A stretch of DNA of 64,000 nucleotides from Allobosea sp. (GTDB lineage: Bacteria > Pseudomonadota > Alphaproteobacteria > Rhizobiales > Beijerinckiaceae), in the NCBI RefSeq assembly GCF_017308075.1, contig NZ_JAFKFX010000036.1, forward strand, positions 1 to 64,000, read 5' to 3'. Below are positions 39,382 through 50,943 of this stretch, piece after piece. Made by a program: the position numbers and the translations under genes. Positions within the stretch are counted from its first letter, which is position 1; each line of letters begins with the position of its first letter. Below the pieces are notes generated by a model, which did not search any database, was not told the DNA's origin, and saw nothing but the letters and a program-made list of their open reading frames with translations.

Positions 39382-40587
39382 TCATTGCTGGCCCAGGCCG
39401 GAGGGGCGCGGCGCAGGGGAGGGCGAAGAGGTCGCCAAGGCTGAGCGCCGCGTGCGGATCGTCCAGGTTCTGGGCGCGATCGGCGCGCCCAGGAGGCTGG
39501 CGTGTCCGCGCTGTCCCATCGGATAGAGCTTTCTTTGCCGCCGTTCATAGGCCGCGGCCTGCGGGCCGCAGAGCCTGGCGCGCAGATCTTCGGGCCTGGA
39601 GGCTGTCTGGTTCGGCAGCGCCCGCAGCGCGGTCCGCCTGCCGCCCTCCGTTTTCGTGAAGCCGTGTTGCAGGAGCTGGGCGATACGCTCGCTGCGTTCC
39701 CTCTCGGTCGTCGCGCCGAGCACGACCGCGACCAGACGCTTTTCGCCGCGGACGGCGAGCGAGACGAGATTTCGCCCCGATGCGCAGACGAAGCCGGTCT
39801 TGAGCCCGATCGCGCCCGGAAAGCGGGTAAGGACCTCGTCGCTCGACTTCAGGACGCGGCCGTCGATGCTGACTTCGGAACGATCGAAGAAGCGCAGATA
39901 GTCCGGGAAATTGCGATCGATGGCGACCCCGAGCAGGGCCAGGTCCCTGGCGGTGGTGACCTGCCTGCGGTCGAAGAGGCCGTCCGGATTGACGAAGCGC
40001 GTGCCCGTCATTCCCAGGCGCCGGGCGGCATCGTTCATCATCGTAACGAACTCGGCCTCGCTGCCCGCGATGGTTTCGGCGATGGCAGCCGCAGCCTCGT
40101 TGGCCGACACCGCCAGCATCGCGTAGAGCGCGTCCTCGAGCGACATCGTGCTGCCCGGCGCCAGGCCTGACTGCACGGATTCCCGGGCGAGGGCCTTGTG
40201 TGAAAAGACCACGTCCTGGCCGAGCGCGACGCGCCCCGCGCGCAAGTGCTCGAATGTGACGAAGGCCGTCATCAGCTTGGTCGTCGAGGCTGGATACCAG
40301 GCGCGGCCGGCCTCCTCGGACCGGAGGACCTGGAGACTGTCGGCATCGACGAGGAGGGACGGTGTCGCTTGGGCGGAAGAGGCGAGCGCAATCAGAAGGC
40401 CGATGACGGCACTGCGGGCAAAGATCGAGGGACAGGGCAATTCTATACCGAGGCTTGGACGATAGTGTTGTCGACTGGCTTCGAGGTCAGCTTCGCGCAG
40501 ATCAGATCCGCATGGCGAAGCAGCCTTGCCGTCTCGTCTGGCGAGAGCGGCAAGCAGGACCGCGAAGTGCTTGTTCGGTTCCGACAT
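39382..40587 (-). CDS. D-alanyl-D-alanine carboxypeptidase (peptidase S11)
   Basis: Active-site motifs are PASTTKLMT (SxxK), SANEAA (SxN) and GLKTGF (KTG). A signal peptide (FARSAVIGLLIALASSAQA) appears near position 55-75 counted from the ATG at 40587, which suggests that translation may instead start nearer, for example the TTG at 40440. The enzyme trims D-Ala from stem peptides in the periplasm. It has no PBP5 C-terminal beta domain; the last 90 residues are a basic low-complexity tail. Same strand as the PBP gene. Confidence 0.85.
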   Translation of the reverse strand: MSEPNKHFAVLLAALARRDGKAASPCGSDLREADLEASRQHYRPSLGIELPCPSIFARSAVIGLLIALASSAQATPSLLVDADSLQVLRSEEAGRAWYPASTTKLMTAFVTFEHLRAGRVALGQDVVFSHKALARESVQSGLAPGSTMSLEDALYAMLAVSANEAAAAIAETIAGSEAEFVTMMNDAARRLGMTGTRFVNPDGLFDRRQVTTARDLALLGVAIDRNFPDYLRFFDRSEVSIDGRVLKSSDEVLTRFPGAIGLKTGFVCASGRNLVSLAVRGEKRLVAVVLGATTERERSERIAQLLQHGFTKTEGGRRTALRALPNQTASRPEDLRARLCGPQAAAYERRQRKLYPMGQRGHASLLGAPIAPRTWTIRTRRSALATSSPSPAPRPSGLGQQ

Positions 40588-40739
40588 TGGCTTGCGAAAT
40601 GCGGCCGCTTGATGAAACAGCCCATGCCTGATCGCGAACGGTGCTGGGCTGTTACTTTCGAGCAACAGCGGATCTCGCGCGCTGTTCGAGGAGGAGCGCC
40701 GTCTTCAACGACGCTTCGCAGGGGCTTCCGATCCGCCGC

Positions 40740-42026
40740 TCAGCTCGCCGAGCGGCGCTTCCACAGCGTCGTGCGGGAGATGCCGAGCAGCTTCGCGGCC
40801 TCGCCGAGATTGCCGTTCGTCTGCACCAATGCCTTCGCGATCTGATCGGCGTCGGCATCGAGCCGGGCGCGGGTGAGGTTGGGCCTCGGCAGCTCGGACA
40901 GGCGCATTTCCGGAAACAGATCGGCGGGCCCCAGCAGATCCTGCTCGGCCATCAGCCGGGCTCGCTCGATGCGATTGCGCAGCTCGCGGATATTGCCAGG
41001 CCAGTCATGGCCCAGCATCGCCAGACGTGCCTCGTCGGTGAACCCTCCCGGCGTGCTTCCGCCGGCCTGTTCCAGAAGGCGCAAGGCGAGCGGCAGGATC
41101 TCGTCGACCCGCTCGCGCAGCGGCGGGATGGCGAAACTCAAGACGGAGAGGCGAAAGTACAGATCGTCACGGAAACGCCCGTCGCGGCGCATCGCGTCGA
41201 GATCGGCATTGGTGGCTGCGACGATGCGCCCCCGGAACGCGCTGTCCTGTGCGGCCCCGACCGCTCGGAAACGCCCATCCTGGAGCACGCGCAGCAGTGC
41301 AGTCTGCAGGCGGGCATCCAGCTCGCCGATCTCGTCGAGGAAGAGCGTGCCGCCACGCGCCTCCTCGAAATGCCCGATATGGGTCTGCGCCGCGCCGGTG
41401 AAGGCGCCGCGCTGATGGCCGAAGAACTGGCTTTCGAGCAGCTCCTTCGGGATTGCCCCGCAGTTGACGGCGACGAACGGCTCCTCGGACCAGGGCGATT
41501 CCTCATGCAGGCGCCGGGCGGCGACCTCCTTGCCGACGCCGGTCTCACCGACGATCAGCACGGGAAGGCGCGATCCGGCGGCACGCTGCAATTGCCGCGC
41601 GAGCACGGCCATTGCGTCCGAGGGCGGCTCGACCTCGACGGGCCCGGCCACTGCGCCGCGCCCCCGCAGCCTGTCCCGGATGCGTACGACCAGCTCGTCG
41701 ACATCGTAGGGCTTCGTCAGATAGTCGTCGGCTCCGGCCTTCACGAGGCGGACGGCCTGTTCGACCTCGCCGAAGGCGGTGACGAACATGATCGGCGTCG
41801 TCCCGAGGAAGCTCTGGGCCTGCCGATAGCAGTCCTCGCCGGAGCCGTCCGGCAGGCGAATATCGCAGAGTATGAAGGCCGGGCTGCGACGCCGCATCGC
41901 CACCAGCGCCGAGCGCACGTCCCGGGCCCAGACCGGCTCGAAGCCTTCCAGCTTCAGGCGCTGCTCGATGGCGCCACCCAGGACCTGATCGTCCTCGACG
42001 ACGAGGATGACGGGGCGTTCCGTCAT
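40740..42026 (-). CDS. Sigma-54-dependent response regulator (NtrC family)
   Basis: 428 residues. Receiver domain with D55 as phosphoacceptor and K105. The AAA+ domain has Walker A GETGVGKE (160-167), the sigma-54 contact motif GAFTGA (207-212) and Walker B GGTLFLDEIGEL. The C-terminal Fis-type helix-turn-helix is GNLGEAAKLLGISRTTLWKR. It activates sigma-54 promoters from upstream enhancers. It overlaps the kinase gene by ATGA and lies at the end of the mnh operon; I propose mnhA as its target. Confidence 0.93.
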   Translation of the reverse strand: MTERPVILVVEDDQVLGGAIEQRLKLEGFEPVWARDVRSALVAMRRRSPAFILCDIRLPDGSGEDCYRQAQSFLGTTPIMFVTAFGEVEQAVRLVKAGADDYLTKPYDVDELVVRIRDRLRGRGAVAGPVEVEPPSDAMAVLARQLQRAAGSRLPVLIVGETGVGKEVAARRLHEESPWSEEPFVAVNCGAIPKELLESQFFGHQRGAFTGAAQTHIGHFEEARGGTLFLDEIGELDARLQTALLRVLQDGRFRAVGAAQDSAFRGRIVAATNADLDAMRRDGRFRDDLYFRLSVLSFAIPPLRERVDEILPLALRLLEQAGGSTPGGFTDEARLAMLGHDWPGNIRELRNRIERARLMAEQDLLGPADLFPEMRLSELPRPNLTRARLDADADQIAKALVQTNGNLGEAAKLLGISRTTLWKRRSAS

Positions 42027-43453
42027 GGCTTCTGCTCCTCGGGTTGAAGCGGAAGGGTCAGCGTGACGGTCGTCCCGGCGCGCGGCGATGCCTCGATGCC
42101 GATGCGGCCGTTCAGGCGCTCGACGAGCCGGATCACGATGCCGATTCCAAGGCCGGGCCCCCCGGGCTCGTCCAATCCGGCCTCGTAGGCGCGTATCACG
42201 GAGCGCGTCATGCCCTCGCCGGTATCCGAGACCTTGAGCACCAGAGAGGCCTGCTCCAATCGTGCCGAAAGCCCGACTTGTCCATCCCGCGGCGTCGCAC
42301 GAATGGCGTTCAGCAGAAGATTCAACAGCACCTGTCGGACCTCGAGGGCCGGCACCGGCACATTCTCCGGCAGGTCGATCTCGACCATCAGCCTGACGCC
42401 CCGCGCTCGGCTGTCGGCTTCCACGAGCAGGCGCAGATCGTCGAGATCCTGCCGCGTGAGCTGGCGCCAGTCGGCCTGCGGGCGATAGCTCGCCAGGGTC
42501 GCGTCAACGACCTGCCCGAGCGCATCGACGCCGCGCGCCAGAAAGCCGAGGGTCTCCTCGCGCACCGAGGCCTGATCGCCGAAATGCCGCAGCGTCGATA
42601 CCGCCGTCCGCATGCCGCCGAGCGGATTGCGGACCTCATGCGCGATCACCGCGGCAAGCTGGCCGAGATCGGCCTTGCGCTGCTGCTCGGCCATATGCGC
42701 GAGCATATCCTCGCGCTCCCGACTGGCATGGACCATGGCGTTGAAGGCGTGGAACATCAGCCTGGAGGGCTTGTCGACCGGCATGGCCGCGGCCTCGATC
42801 GGCTTCGGGAGCCCGAGAGCCGCCTCGTATAGTCGTTGCGCGATCAGGGCAATCGGCTGCTGGATGCGGCGCACCATGAAGAAGCCCGCTACCGCGCAGA
42901 GACCGGAAAAGGCGAGATCGGCCGCCAGCAGCAGCCAGCGCAATCGCTCCCGGTCGCGCTGGAAACCGGATACGTCGAGCCGCGCCACCACCGTGCCATA
43001 GGCTTCGCTGCCCGTCTGCAATGGCCGCCAGAACCAGGCACTTCCGTCGCGCCCGCTGATCGTGCCTGCGGCACGGGTTGCGACCTCGCTCGGAATGGCC
43101 TGGGATGCGACTTTCTCACCGCGCGCGGCCACGACCATGGCCGACCGGGCATCGACGAAGGCGACCTGACGCTCGACGATGCCCTCATGGAACGAGAGCG
43201 CGTTATGCAGCGCCGCGCGGGCGGCTTCCGAATCGCCCGCCCGGACATGTGGCAGCAGCACGGCCGACAGACCGTCGAGATAGATCTGCCCAAGCAGTTC
43301 GGTCTGCTGCGCGGTTTGCCGCGCCATGACCGAGAGCGCGACCTGGGTCGAGGCCACGGCCGCAAAGAAGATCATGCCGGCGGCGGCGAGCGGCAGCCGG
43401 ATCGCGACCGGCAACGCGGCGATGGAGAATCTCAGGGCCAGCTCCCGAACCAT
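42023..43453 (-). CDS. Sensor histidine kinase, partner of the NtrC-type regulator
   Basis: 476 residues. Membrane helices at about 20-45 and 172-195 enclose a periplasmic sensor domain (about 46-170). HAMP-like linker, then H272 in AVIAHEVRNPLGGM, N box NLLLNAIRAT, and G boxes VSDTGEGM and GPGLGIGI. A start 26 bases after the mnhG stop suggests read-through from the antiporter operon. The signal sensed is unknown; salt, pH or membrane energy would fit the context. Confidence 0.9.
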   Translation of the reverse strand: MVRELALRFSIAALPVAIRLPLAAAGMIFFAAVASTQVALSVMARQTAQQTELLGQIYLDGLSAVLLPHVRAGDSEAARAALHNALSFHEGIVERQVAFVDARSAMVVAARGEKVASQAIPSEVATRAAGTISGRDGSAWFWRPLQTGSEAYGTVVARLDVSGFQRDRERLRWLLLAADLAFSGLCAVAGFFMVRRIQQPIALIAQRLYEAALGLPKPIEAAAMPVDKPSRLMFHAFNAMVHASREREDMLAHMAEQQRKADLGQLAAVIAHEVRNPLGGMRTAVSTLRHFGDQASVREETLGFLARGVDALGQVVDATLASYRPQADWRQLTRQDLDDLRLLVEADSRARGVRLMVEIDLPENVPVPALEVRQVLLNLLLNAIRATPRDGQVGLSARLEQASLVLKVSDTGEGMTRSVIRAYEAGLDEPGGPGLGIGIVIRLVERLNGRIGIEASPRAGTTVTLTLPLQPEEQKP

Positions 43454-43479
43454 TGTCAGAGAGTGGAAATCTGGTCGTC

Positions 43480-44646
43480 TCAGCCGAAGATGACAATCGG
43501 CGCGGAGCGCGCGATGCCGCCGGCGCGCCGTGCCTGATTGATCCAGCCCGGATGGCCCTGGTTGCCGTGCACGATGACATGCGCAGCCAGAAGTTCCTGC
43601 GTCTTGTCGGCCGCCGGCACCGAGCCCCGGCCGCGTCGCGCGGTCAAGGCCGATGCGCGCGCGATCTCCGCCTCATGGGCGCCCTCCTCGCAGTGCAGGA
43701 CGAGTTCCGCCTCCGGCCACGGATCATTGGCCAGGAACCAGGTGAGCCTGCGCTCGCTATGCGGCGAGCCGTCATGCAGGAACACGATCCGTTCGATCGC
43801 CTCCGGCGAGGATGCGACGGCCGCAAGCGGAAAGACGCCCCGCGCGACCAGATGGCCGAGCGGGTCCCCGACACCGTCGCCGGTGCCGTGATCGAACCAG
43901 CCCTGGCCGTCGATCAGCAGGAGCCCTCGTTGCGGCAGATGCGCTCCGAGCAGCGCTGCTGGATCGCCTTCTTCGAGCTGCAATGCATAAGAGAGACCGG
44001 CATGGCTGGCCGCCGCCTCGAAGCGCTCGACGCTCGCCGCAAGCTGGCGCCTCGCCTCCTCGAGGCGTGATGCGCGCATACGCGCGGCATAATGGTTGCC
44101 GCCATTGGGCACCGGGCCGATCTTGGCGATCTGCTTGGCGTCGATGATGGCGAGCGCCAGAAGTTCCGCGTCGCTCGCTTTCGCCAGTGCGATCGCCTGG
44201 GCCGCGACAGCCTCGCCGCCCGGACCGGCGGACAGCGCGACGACCACGCGAAAACGCACCGAGGCGGCATCAGCACCGGCCGGGCGCGGCATGCGCTGCG
44301 CGAAGGGACCATCGAAGGAGCCGCGCTTCAGGGTTCCCGCCAGCTCGTCGCTGCTCGTGCCGCTCCATAGCGGCACCCCCGCGACATAGCCGGCGCGCGC
44401 CAGCAGATGGCCGGCGATCGGCGTCGTCACGAGCAGGAAGCCGACCCCGATCGCGACCTTTACCCAGACGTCGGGCGAGGGGTAGGCGAAGCCGACGCCG
44501 ATCAGGACGAGACCGCAGCCGGCAACGCCGGCTTCGGTCGCCGCATGCATACGCATGAAGAAATCCGGCAGGCGCAGCACGCCGGCCGCGGCGATCAGGC
44601 AGATCGCGGCGCCGGCGACGAGGAAGAGCGAGGACAGCCAGAGCAT
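43480..44646 (-). CDS. mnhG: Monovalent cation/proton antiporter subunit G fused to a tandem Usp-like module
   Basis: 388 residues. Residues 1 to about 95 are a normal MnhG/PhaG: three membrane helices and the motif GVLRLPDFFMRMHAATEAG. After a linker the protein continues for about 255 residues with two alpha/beta repeats like universal stress proteins: FRVVVALSAGPGGEAVAAQA, then ERIVFLHDGSPHSERRL, ending AHVIVHGNQGHPGW. Typical MnhG proteins are only 100-130 residues. A stop or start between the halves is absent, so it is a true fusion. The soluble part should face the cytoplasm. Confidence 0.85.
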   Translation of the reverse strand: MLWLSSLFLVAGAAICLIAAAGVLRLPDFFMRMHAATEAGVAGCGLVLIGVGFAYPSPDVWVKVAIGVGFLLVTTPIAGHLLARAGYVAGVPLWSGTSSDELAGTLKRGSFDGPFAQRMPRPAGADAASVRFRVVVALSAGPGGEAVAAQAIALAKASDAELLALAIIDAKQIAKIGPVPNGGNHYAARMRASRLEEARRQLAASVERFEAAASHAGLSYALQLEEGDPAALLGAHLPQRGLLLIDGQGWFDHGTGDGVGDPLGHLVARGVFPLAAVASSPEAIERIVFLHDGSPHSERRLTWFLANDPWPEAELVLHCEEGAHEAEIARASALTARRGRGSVPAADKTQELLAAHVIVHGNQGHPGWINQARRAGGIARSAPIVIFG

Positions 44647-44648
44647 GG

Positions 44649-44942
44649 TCAGCGCTCCTCCTCGTTGATCGAGCCGCGCTCGATGAAGCTCGCAAAGGCG
44701 ACGGTGGTCAGGAAGCCGACCAGCGCAACGCCGAGCGCGATGTCGATGAACGCCGTCGATCCGGCCGCCACGACGGCGATCCCTGTGGCGGAGACGCCGA
44801 GCAGGCTCAACATGTCGAGCGCCACCACACGATCGGGCCCGCCCGGGCCGCGCACGATGCGCATGCCGGCGCAGATCAGCGCGGCCAGCACCAGCGCCGC
44901 CGCGAGGACGACGGAGGCCTGGTGGACGGTTTCGGCAGTCAT
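44649..44942 (-). CDS. mnhF: Monovalent cation/proton antiporter subunit F
   Basis: 97 residues with three membrane helices. Diagnostic motif RIVRGPGGPDRVVALDMLS between helices 1 and 2. The ATG at 44942 overlaps the mnhE stop by 4 bases. A longer in-frame reading upstream overlaps mnhE and is not used. Confidence 0.92.
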   Translation of the reverse strand: MTAETVHQASVVLAAALVLAALICAGMRIVRGPGGPDRVVALDMLSLLGVSATGIAVVAAGSTAFIDIALGVALVGFLTTVAFASFIERGSINEEER

Positions 44943-45271
44943 GGCAGCACCTCCTTCACGCTCCGCTCGAAGCCGTCCTTGATCTGGCGGACGCTGTCGT
45001 CGGAGACGTTCATGACGTGGACATAGAGGGTCGAGCGATCCTGGCTGACATGCAGGCTGGTGGTTCCCGGGGTCAGCGTGATCATGTTGGCGAGCAGGGT
45101 GATGCCGGCATCGCCCTTCAGGCCGAGCGGAACGGCGACGATGGCCGAGCGGTTCGCGCGCTTCGGGTCGAGCACGGTCAGCGTCACCTCTCTCACCGAC
45201 AAGGCGAGCTCCTTGAGGAACAGGCCGCCGAGCCGGCTCCAGGCGAGAGGTGCGTTCACGAGAAGCTTCAT
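44939..45271 (-). CDS. mnhE: Monovalent cation/proton antiporter subunit E, short form
   Basis: 110 residues. The C-terminal half of MnhE is conserved: ANMITLTPGTTSLHVSQD and STLYVHVMNVSD. The usual N-terminal membrane helices (about 50 residues in typical MnhE of about 160) are missing. The frame upstream of the ATG at 45271 is antisense-like and overlaps mnhD, so the shortening is native rather than a wrong start. It is coupled to both neighbours by ATGA overlaps. Confidence 0.85.
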   Translation of the reverse strand: MKLLVNAPLAWSRLGGLFLKELALSVREVTLTVLDPKRANRSAIVAVPLGLKGDAGITLLANMITLTPGTTSLHVSQDRSTLYVHVMNVSDDSVRQIKDGFERSVKEVLP

Positions 45272-46806
45272 GGCTGCCACTCCGCGCTGCGCTGCGGGCC
45301 GGGGCCGAGCACGGCCTCGACATAGGCGCTCTTGTCGAGCAGCTGCTCGCCGGCGCGCAACGAGAACGCGATGAACGGCTCCGCCACCACGCCGATCGTC
45401 ATCGTGATCGCCGCCAGGATGATGATCGGGGTGAGCATGGCGCGCCGCGTGCCGGTGTCGGCAAGCCAGCGCTCGGTCGCGGCCGTGCTGGCGGCGGGGG
45501 CCGCCTTCCAGAACGCCTCGTTCCAGATCTTCAGCATCGAGTAGAGCGTCAGCACGCCGACGGCGAGCGCGGTTGCCGCGAGCAGGGCATGGCCGGCGTC
45601 GAGGCTCGCCTTCACGACGACGAATTTCGACCAGAAGCCCGAGAGCGGCGGCAGGCCGGCAAGCGACAGTGCCGGCACCAGAAAGAGCACTCCGAGCCAG
45701 GGCAGCGTCTTGTAGAGGCCGCCGACCTCCTTGAGCTCGAACGAGCCGCCGGCCCTGTTGATCACGCCGGCCAGCAGGAACAGGTTCGCCTTCACGATGA
45801 TGTGGTGGATCACATAGAGGATCGCCCCGCCGATCGCGAGCGGTGTCGCGACGGCGATCCCGAGCAGCATGTAGCCGATCTGGCTGATGATGTGGAACGA
45901 CAGGATCTTGCGGACGTCGAAATGCGCGGCGGCGCCGAGCACGCCGGTGACCATGGTCAGCGCCGCGACGATGCCGATGACCGGTGCGGTGAAGCCGAGC
46001 GAGAGATCGAAGATCAGGGTGAAGCTGCGCAGGATCGCGTAGACCCCGACCTTGGTCAGCAGCGCGGCAAAGATGGCGACGATCGGTGCCGAGGCGGTGT
46101 GGTAGGAGGCCGGCAGCCAGAAGAAGAGCGGGAACACCGCGGCCTTCGAGCCGAAGGCGACCAGGAAGAGCACGGCGATCGTCGTCACCAGCCCCTGATT
46201 GTCGATCGTCGGCAGGATCCGCGCGAGATCGGCCATGTTGAGGCTGCCGGTCAGCCCGTAGAGGAAGGCCACGCAGATCAGGAAGAGCGTCGTCGCGACG
46301 AGGTTCAGCGTCACATATTTCACGCCGGCGTCGAGCTGCTCGCGGGTGCCGCCGAGGGCCAGCAGGCCGAAGGACGAGATCAGCATGACCTCGAACCAGA
46401 CATAGAGGTTGAAGATGTCGCCGGTCAGGAAGGCGCCGGTCACGCCGAGCAGCAGGCCCTGATAGAGCGGATGGTAGAAGGCCGCTTCGCGCGCTTCGGC
46501 ATCGCCCGCGAGCCCGTAGATTCCGACGGCGACCGCCATCAGCCCGGTGATGACCACCATCGCCGCCGAGAGCATGTCGCCGACGAAGCTGATGCCGAAG
46601 GGCGCAGCCCAGCCGCCGAACTGCGTAGCGAGCACGGTGCCGTCCCAGGTCGCGGCGAGGAGTGCGAGGGATGAAAGCAGGAGGCCGGCGCTGACGACGA
46701 GGCTCGTGATCCTCTGGGCGCGTGGCCTGCTCCACAGCATGCAGCAGAGCGCGACGCCCAGCAGCGGCCAGATGATCGGCAGCGACAAAAGCAGATGGGC
46801 GTTCAT
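45268..46806 (-). CDS. mnhD: Monovalent cation/proton antiporter subunit D
   Basis: 512 residues, about 14 membrane helices, homologous to proton-pumping subunits of complex I (proton_antipo_M domain about 125-420). Features: LYVWFEVMLISSFGLLALGG with its membrane Glu, VFPLFFWLPASYHTASAPIVA and IIVKANLFLLAGVINRAGG. With MnhA it forms the ion-translocating part of the Mrp complex. Confidence 0.94.
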   Translation of the reverse strand: MNAHLLLSLPIIWPLLGVALCCMLWSRPRAQRITSLVVSAGLLLSSLALLAATWDGTVLATQFGGWAAPFGISFVGDMLSAAMVVITGLMAVAVGIYGLAGDAEAREAAFYHPLYQGLLLGVTGAFLTGDIFNLYVWFEVMLISSFGLLALGGTREQLDAGVKYVTLNLVATTLFLICVAFLYGLTGSLNMADLARILPTIDNQGLVTTIAVLFLVAFGSKAAVFPLFFWLPASYHTASAPIVAIFAALLTKVGVYAILRSFTLIFDLSLGFTAPVIGIVAALTMVTGVLGAAAHFDVRKILSFHIISQIGYMLLGIAVATPLAIGGAILYVIHHIIVKANLFLLAGVINRAGGSFELKEVGGLYKTLPWLGVLFLVPALSLAGLPPLSGFWSKFVVVKASLDAGHALLAATALAVGVLTLYSMLKIWNEAFWKAAPAASTAATERWLADTGTRRAMLTPIIILAAITMTIGVVAEPFIAFSLRAGEQLLDKSAYVEAVLGPGPQRSAEWQP

Positions 46807-47225
46807 CGAACCGTCTCCGCGGCAGGAACGTCGCCGGCGACCGGCGCGGCGGCGGCAGCCGGGGCCGGCTTGGGGCCAGGCTTCGGCTCCGCGTCCCGCA
46901 GCGCCTCGGTGTCGAGGGTGCCAAAGCGGCGATGCGCGCTCTCGAACAGGATCACGGTGAAGGCGATCAGGGCGAAGGAGATCACGATCGCGGTCAGGAT
47001 CAGCGCCTGGGGCAAGGGATTGGCGCCCCCGACGAGCGTCGTGGCCCCTTCGGGAACCAGCGGCGGCGTTCGCGTTCCCATCCGCCCCGCCAGGAAGATC
47101 GAAAGATTGGCCGCGTTGCCGAGCACCAGCAGCCCGAGCACGATCCGCAGGACATTGCGCGACATGATCAGATAGGTCGACGCCGCGACGAGGACGCCGA
47201 ACGCCAGAGCGAAGACGGGTTCCAT
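46803..47225 (-). CDS. mnhC: Monovalent cation/proton antiporter subunit C
   Basis: 140 residues, NuoK-like with three helices: LAFGVLVAASTYLIMSRNVL, IVLGLLVLGNAANLSIF and LILTAIVISFALIAFTVILF. The Ala/Pro-rich C-terminal tail (PKPGPKPAPAAAAAP) is unusual but common in related species as far as I recall. GGAGG precedes the ATG at 47225; 4-base overlap with mnhD. Confidence 0.92.
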   Translation of the reverse strand: MEPVFALAFGVLVAASTYLIMSRNVLRIVLGLLVLGNAANLSIFLAGRMGTRTPPLVPEGATTLVGGANPLPQALILTAIVISFALIAFTVILFESAHRRFGTLDTEALRDAEPKPGPKPAPAAAAAPVAGDVPAAETVR

Positions 47226-47227
47226 CG

Positions 47228-47626
47228 TCACTCCTCCAGATAATAGGCGAGGAAGGTCAGCACCGCGCCGACGACGGACAGATAGACGCCGATGTCGAAG
47301 ATCAGAGTGGTGCTCAGCGGCAGGCCGCCCGGAAAGGCCCATTGGTGCTTCAGATAGGGCTCGGCCAGCAGCAGTCCCGGCAGGCCCGACAGCAAGGCCA
47401 GCGCCAGCCCGGCGCCGATCAACGTCTTGGGCGAGACCTTGAGCAGGCGCAGCAGCGCGCTGCGCCCCCGCGGCAGGCTGTGCACCGCGATGCCGGCCGC
47501 GGCGATCAGCCCGCCGACGAAGCCTCCGCCCGGCTCGTTGTGCCCGCGCAGCAGGACATAGACCGAGAACAGCATCGCAACCGGCAGGACGATCCGGCTG
47601 CTGGTCAACAGGATGAGGGAGTTCAT
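47228..47626 (-). CDS. mnhB: Monovalent cation/proton antiporter subunit B
   Basis: 132 residues, four helices. The MnhB signature [20 protein letters not shown] is present. It is a separate gene here, whereas in many rhizobia subunits A and B are one fused protein (PhaAB). Overlaps the mnhA stop by 4 bases. Confidence 0.92.
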
Positions 47627-49923
47627 CGGGCATCTCCAGCGGTCGCGCGCCTGAGGCCGGCGATCACCGCGGCCGCGGCGATCGCGGCCAGGCCGAGCAC
47701 GGTGATCTCGCCGAGCGTGTCGAGCGCGCGGAAGTCGACGATGATGACATTGACGAGATTGCGCCCATGGGCCTGCGGCAGGCTCTCGGCGCGGAAGAAA
47801 TCCGAAATGCGGGCGTCGAAGGGCTGGGCCAGCACGCTGAGCATCACCAGGGTCGCCATGATGCCGGCCGCGAGCGCGATCGCCCCGTCGCGCAGCCGCT
47901 CGCCGCGCCGGCGGTAATCGCTGTCGCGGAACGGCAGCCGTCCGATGATGGCGAGCAGGATCACGATCGAGAGCGCCTCGACCGAGAATTGCGTGAAGGC
48001 GAGGTCGGGTGCGCCCTGGAACAGGAACAGCAGCGCGACCGCAAAGCCGACCAGACCGGCCGCCGCGATGCCGGCGACGAAATTGCGGGCGCGCAGCACG
48101 GCAAAGGTGGAGGCTGCGAGCAGGGCGGCGATGACGAGCTCCGGCTGCCGGCTCGCCGCGAAGTCCGGCCATGCCATGCCGCCCTGCGAGATCAGCGCCG
48201 AAAGTCCGGCCAGCGCTGCGACGGCGACGGTGTAGCCGGTATAGGTCCGCAGGCTGCCGGATTGGATCATGCGCGTCTGCCACGCGGCCAGCTGCTGCAG
48301 GCCCTGTATCAGGCGGTCATAGGCGCGATCGGGTCCCCAGCGGGGGATCGCCTCGACCATGGCGAGCCTGAGCCGGATCCCGGTCCCGTTCCGGAAGACG
48401 GCGATCCCGAGTGCCAGGGTGACGACGCTGAGCAGCAGCATCGGCGTGAAGCCGTGCCAGAGCGACAGGGTGTAGTCGATCGGGCGCCCGGCGATGGCTG
48501 CGGCGGCCGGCAGGATCAGCGCGTCGCTGACCAGCCACGGCGCCAGCCCGAAGACGAGGCCGAGTGCGGCGAGAACGAGAGGCCCGGCGAGCATGGCGAG
48601 GCCGGGGTCGTGCGGCGTCTTGGGGGTCTCGACGCGCGGACCCGCGAAGCAGCGCAGCGATAGGATGCAGGCGACCACGACCATGGCGATATTGGCGAGG
48701 AGCGCGATGCCGACGACCAGCCCGGACGCCGACGCCGCCAGGCCGGTCTCATAGACCAGCTCCTTCGCGGCGAAGCCGATGAAGGGCGGCAATCCGGCCA
48801 TGGACAGGCTGCCCGCGAGCGCAGCGAGCGCCGTCAGCGGCATCGCCTGGCGCAAGCCGCCCAGCGCCGAGGAATCGCGCGTGCCGGTCTGCTGATCGAT
48901 GATGCCGGCGACGAGGAAGAGGCAGGCCTTGTAGAGCGCATGGACCACGAGGAAGGTCACGATCGCCATGGCCGAGAGCTCGCCCGGAATGCCGATCATC
49001 AGCACGAGCGTGCCGAGCGAGATGATCGTCGAATAGGCCAGGACGCGCTTGAGGTCGCTTTCGCGCAAGGCGAGCACGGCACCGACCAGCATGGTCAGGC
49101 CGCCGAAGCCGGTCAGCAGCAGCACCCAGGTGGCGTGCCCTTCGAAGACCGGGCTCAACCGTGCCAGCAGGTACACGCCGAGCTTCACCATGGTGGCGGA
49201 ATGCAGAAAGGCCGAGACCGGCGTCGGCGCGACCATGGCATTGGCGAGCCAGGGATGCAGCGGGGACTGGGCGGATTTCGCGAAGGCCCCGGCCGCGAGC
49301 AGGCAGATGATCGTCGGCGCCAGGGCGTGGGCCGCGACCTCGTCCTTGCGGGCGATCAGTCCCGAGAGCGAATAGCTGCCGGTGATCTGGCCGAGCAGGA
49401 TCACGCCCGCCAGCATGGCGAGGCCGCCGCCGACCGTGACCAGCAGGCCCTGCTGGGCGGCGCGGCGCGACATCGCCTGCTCCGGCGAGAAGCCGATCAG
49501 CAGGAAGGAGGTCAGGCTGGTCAGCTCCCAGAAGACGACGAGCAGCAACAGGTCATCGGCGAGCACGGCGCCGAGCATCGCCGCCATGAACAGCGTCAGC
49601 ACGGCATAGAAGCGCGGCAGGCGCGGATATTTCTTCAGATAGAGCGAGGCGTACAGAAACACCGCCGTACCGATGCCGGTGATCAACAGCGCGAAGAGGA
49701 GCGAGAGCCCGTCCGCCCGGAACGCCGCGGCGACGCCCAGCGACGGAATCCAGCTATAGGCCGTGCTGACCGCGGCGCCGGACGCCACCGGCGGTACGAT
49801 TGCGAGGAAGCATAGCGCCAGCGCCAGGGGCACGAGCGCGACCAGGGCCGATGAGCGGCCGCCGAGCCAGGCGGCGAGCGGGGCCAGCCCAAAGGCGATG
49901 ACGATGAGAAATGCGAGATCCAT
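47623..49923 (-). CDS. mnhA: Monovalent cation/proton antiporter subunit A
   Basis: 766 residues, about 20 membrane helices, NuoL-like core ([20 protein letters not shown] and [20 protein letters not shown]) plus a C-terminal DUF4040/MbhD-like part ([17 protein letters not shown]) and a final helix pair. It is the largest subunit of the Mrp sodium or potassium/proton antiporter. The ATG at 49923 starts the first helix; an earlier TTG at 50001 adds residues with no family match. It heads the mnhABCDEFG operon. Confidence 0.93.
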
Positions 49924-49950
49924 TGCGACCCGGTCCAGTTCGGGCCGGGG

Positions 49951-49970
49951 AATAGAAAGAACCGTGCCAA
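49951..49970 (-). promoter_or_regulatory. Putative sigma-54 promoter of the mnh operon
   Basis: On the minus strand TTGGCACG-GTTC-TTTCT matches the sigma-54 consensus TGGCACG-N4-TTGCT with a single change (GC to TC at the -12 doublet). The -24 GG lies at 49968/49967 and the spacing is exact. Expected transcript start near 49943, about 20 bases before the mnhA ATG. Seen as sequence; activity is inference. Confidence 0.55.
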
Positions 49971-50057
49971 GGTCCGCGCCGGGAAGAAAAGTCAACCACA
50001 ACAGCGGGTTGGCGTCTCAGACATGGGAATGCGAAGCGCCTGCGCGTTCAGTTTCCT

Positions 50058-50080
50058 GAACATTGGCGGCCGGAATGTTC
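50058..50080. promoter_or_regulatory. Perfect dyad upstream of mnhA, candidate enhancer site
   Basis: GAACATT (50058-50064), 9 bases, AATGTTC (50074-50080). The centre is about 126 bp before the predicted sigma-54 transcript start, the usual range for NtrC-family activator sites. Otherwise the gap 49924-50133 only shows a GC-rich hairpin GGCCC-GGCT-GGGCC (50102-50115) after the TPR gene. Confidence 0.5.
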
Positions 50081-50133
50081 CGATCATGCGACATCCAGCC
50101 CGGCCCGGCTGGGCCCCGGTGGCGCCTCGTCGG

Positions 50134-50943
50134 CTAGCCCGCGCGCTGGGGCTTCGCCTTGCCGCCGCGCAGCATCTCCCAGCTATTGGGCTGGCTGACC
50201 GAGCGACGCAGATAGGCGACGGTCGCCGTCGCTTCGGCCGGGCTCATATCCTGGCGGGCGAGCTGTTCGGCCTCGGCAAAGCGCCCCTGCAGGCCCAGCA
50301 CCAGGACGAGGTTCTGGCGCACGCGGGCGTCGCTGCCGGGCGCGGCTACGGCCTCGCGCAGCACGCGCTCGGCCTCCGGCAGGCGCTTCGTGAGGGCGAG
50401 CGACAGGCCGAGATTGGACATGATCGTCGGCTCGTTCGGCGCCAGCCTGAGCGCGGTCTGGTAGATCTGCTGGGCGCGCTCGTGCTCGCCGAGCTGGTCG
50501 GCGACCGTGCCCTGGGCCGAGAGCACGCGCCAATCCGGCTTCTCCGGCGTGTGGGCGCGGCTGAGCACGTCGTCAGCCTCCTTCAGCCGGCCATTATCGG
50601 CGAGCGAGCGGCCATAGGCGCCGAGCAGCTCGAGATCCTTGGTGTGGACCAGCACCGCACCCTGCAGGATGGCGAGCGCCTGGGCGTTCTTGTCGAGCGC
50701 GCGCAGCGCCCTGGCGTAATAGAAGGCGGCGTTGCGGTCCTTGGCATTGGCCTCGTAACGCGCGGCCCATTGCGCCTCCTCGGCGCGCCACTGCTCCGGC
50801 CCGCGCGGCTGGCTGGCGGCGCTGCCGATCGAGCCGGTGACGTCGCCCGGTCCGCCGCGCATCTGGCAGGCGGAGAGGGCGAGGCAGGCCAGGTAAACCG
50901 CGGCGAAACGGCGAAGACGGGGACGGAACATGGGCTTGGACAT
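50134..50943 (-). CDS. TPR-repeat lipoprotein, TadD-like
   Basis: About 269 residues. Signal peptide with lipobox LALSAC, then four or more tetratricopeptide repeats, for example QIYQTALRLAPNEPTIMSNL, LVLVLGLQGRFAEAEQLA. This layout is that of TadD, an outer-membrane lipoprotein needed to build the Flp pilus secretin. It lies 20 kb from the tad locus. The start could also be the ATG at 50931. TadD identity is likely but generic TPR lipoproteins look similar. Confidence 0.75.
   Translation of the reverse strand: MSKPMFRPRLRRFAAVYLACLALSACQMRGGPGDVTGSIGSAASQPRGPEQWRAEEAQWAARYEANAKDRNAAFYYARALRALDKNAQALAILQGAVLVHTKDLELLGAYGRSLADNGRLKEADDVLSRAHTPEKPDWRVLSAQGTVADQLGEHERAQQIYQTALRLAPNEPTIMSNLGLSLALTKRLPEAERVLREAVAAPGSDARVRQNLVLVLGLQGRFAEAEQLARQDMSPAEATATVAYLRRSVSQPNSWEMLRGGKAKPQRAG

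Follow-up and report, generated by a model that had tools for sequence, protein, structure and literature searches.

The locus described here lies within a stretch of 64,000 nucleotides of Allobosea sp. (hereafter the window), where two operator-like palindromes, a -24/-12 element, the genes mnhABCDEFG, a histidine kinase gene and a response regulator gene succeed one another on the minus strand from 50092 to 40740:

50077-50092, minus: weak distal candidate operator GTCGCATGATCGGAAC, with 2 mismatches in 8, 31 bp upstream of the proximal operator
50058-50080, no strand: dyad GAACATT-N9-AATGTTC, made of the right half of the distal and the left half of the proximal operator
50046-50061, minus: proximal candidate operator GTTCAGGAAACTGAAC, a 16-bp palindrome GTTC-N8-GAAC, conserved across cassettes and of the AioR-footprint form
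49954-49969, minus: predicted -24/-12 element TGGCACG-N4-TTTCT (TGGCACGGTTCTTTCT), recognised from its sequence, 46 bp 5' of mnhA
47623-49923, minus: mnhA, 766 aa; Pfam Proton_antipo_M/N, MbhD and MbhE
47228-47626, minus: mnhB, 132 aa; Pfam MnhB
46803-47225, minus: mnhC, 140 aa; Pfam Oxidored_q2
45268-46806, minus: mnhD, 512 aa; Pfam Proton_antipo_M, and NCBIfam NF009306 above its cut-off
44939-45271, minus: mnhE, 110 aa, with a short N-terminus; Pfam MNHE, positions 42-145 of 145
44649-44942, minus: mnhF, 97 aa; Pfam MrpF_PhaF
43480-44646, minus: mnhG with a fused C-terminal universal-stress-like region, 388 aa; Pfam PhaG_MnhG_YufB at 8-87 and Usp at 133-231
42023-43453, minus: AioS-like histidine kinase, 476 aa; HisKA and HATPase_c domains, and position in a tree
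40740-42026, minus: AioR-like NtrC-type response regulator with GAFTGA, 428 aa; Pfam Response_reg, Sigma54_activat and HTH_8

All seven subunit genes A-G of a Mrp/Mnh antiporter are present, the intergenic gaps within the operon ranging from -4 to +26 bp, and about the first 41 Pfam model positions are missing from MnhE. The kinase begins 26 bp past mnhG and overlaps the regulator gene by 4 bp, so that the open reading frames and Pfam matches bear out the initial annotation, which had placed a kinase and a GAFTGA-containing NtrC-type regulator 26 bases past the operon on the same strand. The regulator combines a receiver, an AAA+ domain with GAFTGA and a Fis-type HTH, as is typical of receiver-group bEBPs. 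For the sensor part of the kinase, the matches listed in a search of solved structures at E up to 1e-8 gave no relative, as all of those listed for the kinase profile cover position 242 onward only. The Usp match of MnhG is marginal in the window protein, to which the domain scan of the extension was applied (24.4 bits for a cut-off of 24); a plasmid search with this extension gave no match at 1e-25. The same genome also holds a second mnhA copy (L123, G000:C3:116353-118611), which is 39% identical and has neither linked pair nor operator.

Relatives of the kinase were sought at increasing taxonomic distance. In the genus, 2 of 67 genomes matched at high identity (the genome itself and G213, 73%) and nine more at 32-33%, while the order search at E up to 1e-90 returned the genome itself and G132 only, out of 397 genomes. 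At the level of the class, 6 of 385 genomes reached 1e-72, namely the genome itself, G494, G553, G640, G774, and G673; the cassette is present in G494, G553, G640, and G774, and no mnh genes occur within the 19 kb fetched from G673. The family of G640 provided two further cassettes (3 of 4 genomes) and its order no further one (3 of 43 genomes, all already known), and the new matches of the phylum search, G353, G077, and G034, are aio loci. Besides, two plasmid records, both from Skermanella, matched the kinase, and a scan of the genome contigs detected remote kinases only, the best being 41% identical over a segment. Since the searches sample each group and their thresholds are strict, these cassette counts are lower bounds.

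Nine cassettes, each consisting of mnhA-G, kinase and regulator, were fetched (the window, L102, L103, L142, L143, L144, L145, L153, and L154), all from Alphaproteobacteria. In all nine, MnhG carries a C-terminal extension (388-436 aa from the aligned start) and the kinase and regulator genes lie downstream of their putative target genes, within 80 bp or overlapping in eight. In L154, the pair stands 4,474 bp from mnhG and no site was found before the kinase, so autoregulation via the antiporter promoter is not a given at this locus; three open reading frames tested in the intervening 4.5 kb or so (L154:5021-9496) gave no Pfam match. Two related loci lie outside this set. A Pseudoroseomonas cervicalis plasmid (L124:7556-17049) bears a related kinase/regulator pair followed by a PTS IIA-like gene and a fused-A Mrp operon, and neither an operator nor a good promoter was found beside this pair and its fused-type operon. 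At L141, mnh genes are missing next to the pair, a single operator, with one mismatch, is placed at -42 from the kinase, and nothing there matches the promoter.

Upstream of mnhA, the initial annotation had seen a sigma-54-like element, and it is indeed there: TGGCACGGTTCTTTCT differs at one position from TGGCACG-N4-TTGCW, with exact spacing, and no other site of the window comes that close to the consensus. The base that is lost is the G of the usual -12 GC, where the window reads TC, and the transcription start predicted from the element is at about 49943. As loose matches (at most 3 mismatches) are common, numbering 65 in the window where shuffles average 94.8, a lone match of such quality is weak evidence and not decisive, and the promoter case therefore rests on comparison. 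In all nine cassettes a -24 element lies 44-62 bp 5' of mnhA, the start of which was positioned by alignment at six of the loci; it reads TGGCAC at the corresponding place in eight and TGGCGC in L144 (TGGCGCA). The GG at -24 and the spacing are fixed throughout. The -12 elements read TTTCT, TTCCA, TTTCA, TTGCG, GTGAA, TTGAA, TTGTG, TTGAG, and TTGAA, so that a full TTGCW is found in none and a complete -12 GC in L142 only. The RpoN DNA-binding domain has one match in the genome. A scan of the minus strand from 40300 to 50300 detected four terminator-like sites, as many as chance predicts (4.0).

Further upstream, GTTCA-N6-TGAAC was found in the window, L102, and L103 at -138, -136, and -149 from mnhA, respectively; in the window, the proximal operator is 92 bp from the -24 element, start to start. 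As the motif was first seen in these three cassettes, the other six serve as an independent test of its relaxed form GTTC-N8-GAAC, which is perfect in five of them and has a single mismatch in L142; this makes eight perfect proximal operators out of nine. A second operator with 0-2 mismatches stands 30-33 bp away in eight cassettes, and in L154 one stands 22 bp away. It is perfect in L103, L143, L144, and L153 and has a single mismatch in L102; the copies of the window, L142, and L145, with two mismatches each, are individually weak candidates. The operator and the -24 element are thus found in every cassette (one operator being mismatched and one -24 weak), and the combination anticipated at the outset, of a -24 element, an activator site at enhancer distance and a regulatory pair at the operon end, recurs in 9/9.

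The operator-promoter combination is absent from all 18 mnhA upstream regions lacking the pair. Fifteen of these controls come from Bosea genomes without a linked pair, the genome's own second copy L123 included, any kinase match being on another contig or more than 2 Mb away, and three from closer relatives (L188-L190, about 46-47% MnhA identity). Dinucleotide shuffles of the nine regions gave the combination, defined as an operator with at most 1 mismatch plus a promoter with at most 3, in 3-20 of 3000 per locus. A genome-wide regulon hunt with the combined pattern was abandoned, as it stayed at chance level with no enrichment over the backward pattern: the looser version occurs in 47 of the 67 genomes of the genus, with about 64 matches for 87 of the backward pattern (hand count), which corresponds to about one per genome by chance, at or below the backward rate. 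Position, and not rarity, therefore carries the argument. The operator-promoter distances of the nine cassettes also look non-random in their helical phasing (at 10.5 bp R is 0.71, a value reached by 0.76% of random sets); we give this signal little weight, since the distances were entered by hand, the proximal site was picked by eye (a 2-mismatch site for L142, and for L154 a perfect site over a nearer 1-mismatch one) and kinship is uncorrected.

The kinase and the regulator resemble AioS and AioR, the regulators of arsenite oxidation. Identity between the regulator and AioR of strain NT-26 is 46.7%, and the best of the 393 records in a plasmid search shares 49.9% with the regulator. The HTH motif SRTTLW is found in 13 of 16 aligned rows, NT-26 AioR included, the other three having M or I for L. 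AioR-type sites upstream of mnhA and an AioR-like HTH in the regulator are both known here at the level of sequence. In the kinase tree, eight aio-linked kinases, all with aioX, separate with full support from 13 others that comprise those of all nine cassettes; as the root is midpoint, whether the two sets are sister groups depends on how the tree is drawn. For eight cassettes the regulator tree gives the same picture, the regulators of L142 and L124 falling on the AioR side. No match to aioX or aioA turned up across the 64-kb window or the DNA fetched around the other eight cassettes, and aioX is present in 8/8 aio loci. AioR is reported to protect GTTCGGATTTCCGAAC (PMC5335332). In another study, all 12 aioXSR-linked aioBA operons have tandem palindromes 100-200 nt before aioB together with a -24/-12 element, both being reported absent from aioBA operons without aioXSR (PMC3834237), and a review mentions RpoN dependence of aioBA (PMC7533571). 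Among the seven aio loci scanned here, L105 being left out of the scan, six show an operator/promoter geometry like that of the cassettes and L155 does not. AioX and AioS/AioR-type genes are also present in some Bosea genomes (L105, L106), and in Bosea strain F3-2 such genes lie on a plasmid, adjoining arsenite oxidase genes with tandem operators.

Several other readings of these elements have to be weighed. The initial annotation had taken the dyad GAACATT-N9-AATGTTC as the enhancer. The dyad is perfect and has no other match in the window even with 3 mismatches allowed (shuffles expect 0.41), but each arm can be put down to the inward half-site of one of the two operators (GAAC at 50077-50080 and GTTC at 50058-50061), and it is missing from L102 and L103, where GTTC-N8-GAAC is present. 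With its own register not kept, it was rejected as the operator, and that the enhancer is the dyad as written seems most improbable; the candidate activator site is corrected to GTTC-N8-GAAC at 50046-50061 with its weak copy at 50077-50092. What was sought in relatives was accordingly found in part, in that the -24 element and the 16-bp palindrome overlapping the dyad recur and the dyad itself does not. It is also conceivable that the -24-like element is a coincidence, mnhA being transcribed from a sigma-70-type or other promoter and the palindromes binding the regulator as a conventional factor. The imperfect -12 in all nine cassettes speaks for it, as does the fact that a single-site match is not rare by chance. 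Against it stand the recurrence of TGGCAC (8/9) or TGGCGC (1/9) at a similar place, the GAFTGA and Sigma54_activat domain that the regulator retains, and a consensus scan of the minus strand from 40300 to 50300, limited to sigma-70-like sites among promoter types, that detected none before mnhA. We regard such a coincidence as unlikely.

Since NtrC-type activators abound and recognise short sites, the promoter and operators could be real and serve another activator of this type, the linked pair acting elsewhere. GTTCA-N6-TGAAC occurs six times in the genome, which leaves five further perfect sites for such a protein; yet none of these five has a promoter-like match on the right side and at the right distance, as the copy of the window does. 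Besides, operator and pair occur together in all nine cassettes, the operator is absent from the 18 mnhA regions without the pair, its form is that of the AioR footprint, and the HTH of the linked regulator matches that of AioR. Control by another activator is consequently quite unlikely in our eyes, a little more so than a fortuitous -24 element.

The reading that we hold with good confidence is that of a self-contained ion-homeostasis cassette, in which an AioSR-type pair would drive sigma-54 transcription of the antiporter and of itself via tandem operators. An AioS-type membrane kinase, working without AioX, would sense a cue and, by analogy with AioSR, pass a phosphoryl group to the AioR-type regulator, which would bind the tandem GTTC-N8-GAAC operators some 70-105 bp upstream of the -24/-12 element. 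The bound regulator would then contact the sigma-54 polymerase by DNA looping, giving rise to a transcript from mnhA through the regulator gene, and the co-transcribed kinase and regulator would provide positive feedback. Operator binding, sigma-54 dependence, a single transcript and positive autoregulation are what we infer for the cassette, while its gene order, its domains and the conservation of operator and -24 element can be read from the DNA itself. A signalling role of the universal-stress-like domain of MnhG is plausible, as in Skermanella, too, the pair has a USP gene ahead of it. In both Skermanella plasmids (L125:6477-10308 and L139:6452-10302), a USP-kinase-regulator operon is preceded by tandem operators and a -24/-12 element of the same geometry, and a sodium:solute symporter and a DUF294 protein are encoded nearby. 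More tentatively, a branch of AioSR may have been recruited without AioX for Alphaproteobacterial Mrp antiporters, the MnhG extension feeding back on the kinase and the antiporter being part of the sensor. If so, arsenite oxidisers would possess, with their AioSR, one branch of a larger regulator family for ion stress.

The regulation of Mrp operons appears little described in the sources consulted: in the accessible part of a 2017 Mrp review, regulation terms were found in its reference list only, and the literature searched, which mostly excludes subscription papers, turned up no account of such an operon under sigma-54 or AioR-like control, in agreement with the initial annotation, which knew of none. 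A cassette with its own sensor, activator and operators would offer a testable and movable control module, would place AioSR in a wider family sharing one DNA code, and would give a lead on what AioSR-family sensors detect in the absence of AioX.

In comparison with known systems, the cassette shares its general design with NtrBC and other bEBP two-component systems, namely the receiver-AAA+-Fis HTH architecture, GAFTGA and paired upstream sites, but its regulator stays below the NCBIfam equivalog cut-offs of the 25 families listed, the best being ntrC with 328.8 bits for a cut-off of 558.6. With the Mrp/Mnh/Pha antiporters (CPA3), it has in common the seven subunits A-G in canonical order, whereas the universal-stress-like extension of MnhG and a predicted sigma-54-type control of its own set it apart; the Sinorhizobium meliloti pSymB relative, for instance, has a 116-aa MnhG and no kinase/regulator pair. 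The closest likeness is to AioXSR-aioBA of Agrobacterium, Rhizobium NT-26 and Herminiimonas, which likewise pairs a kinase with an NtrC-type regulator, both of the same family as here, and has tandem GTTC-N8-GAAC about 33 bp apart and a -24/-12 promoter. The cassette nevertheless differs from it in having no aioX beside its kinase, no aioA in its stretches and its pair downstream of the target genes, and the target itself would be the Mrp antiporter mnhA-G instead of the arsenite oxidase aioBA.
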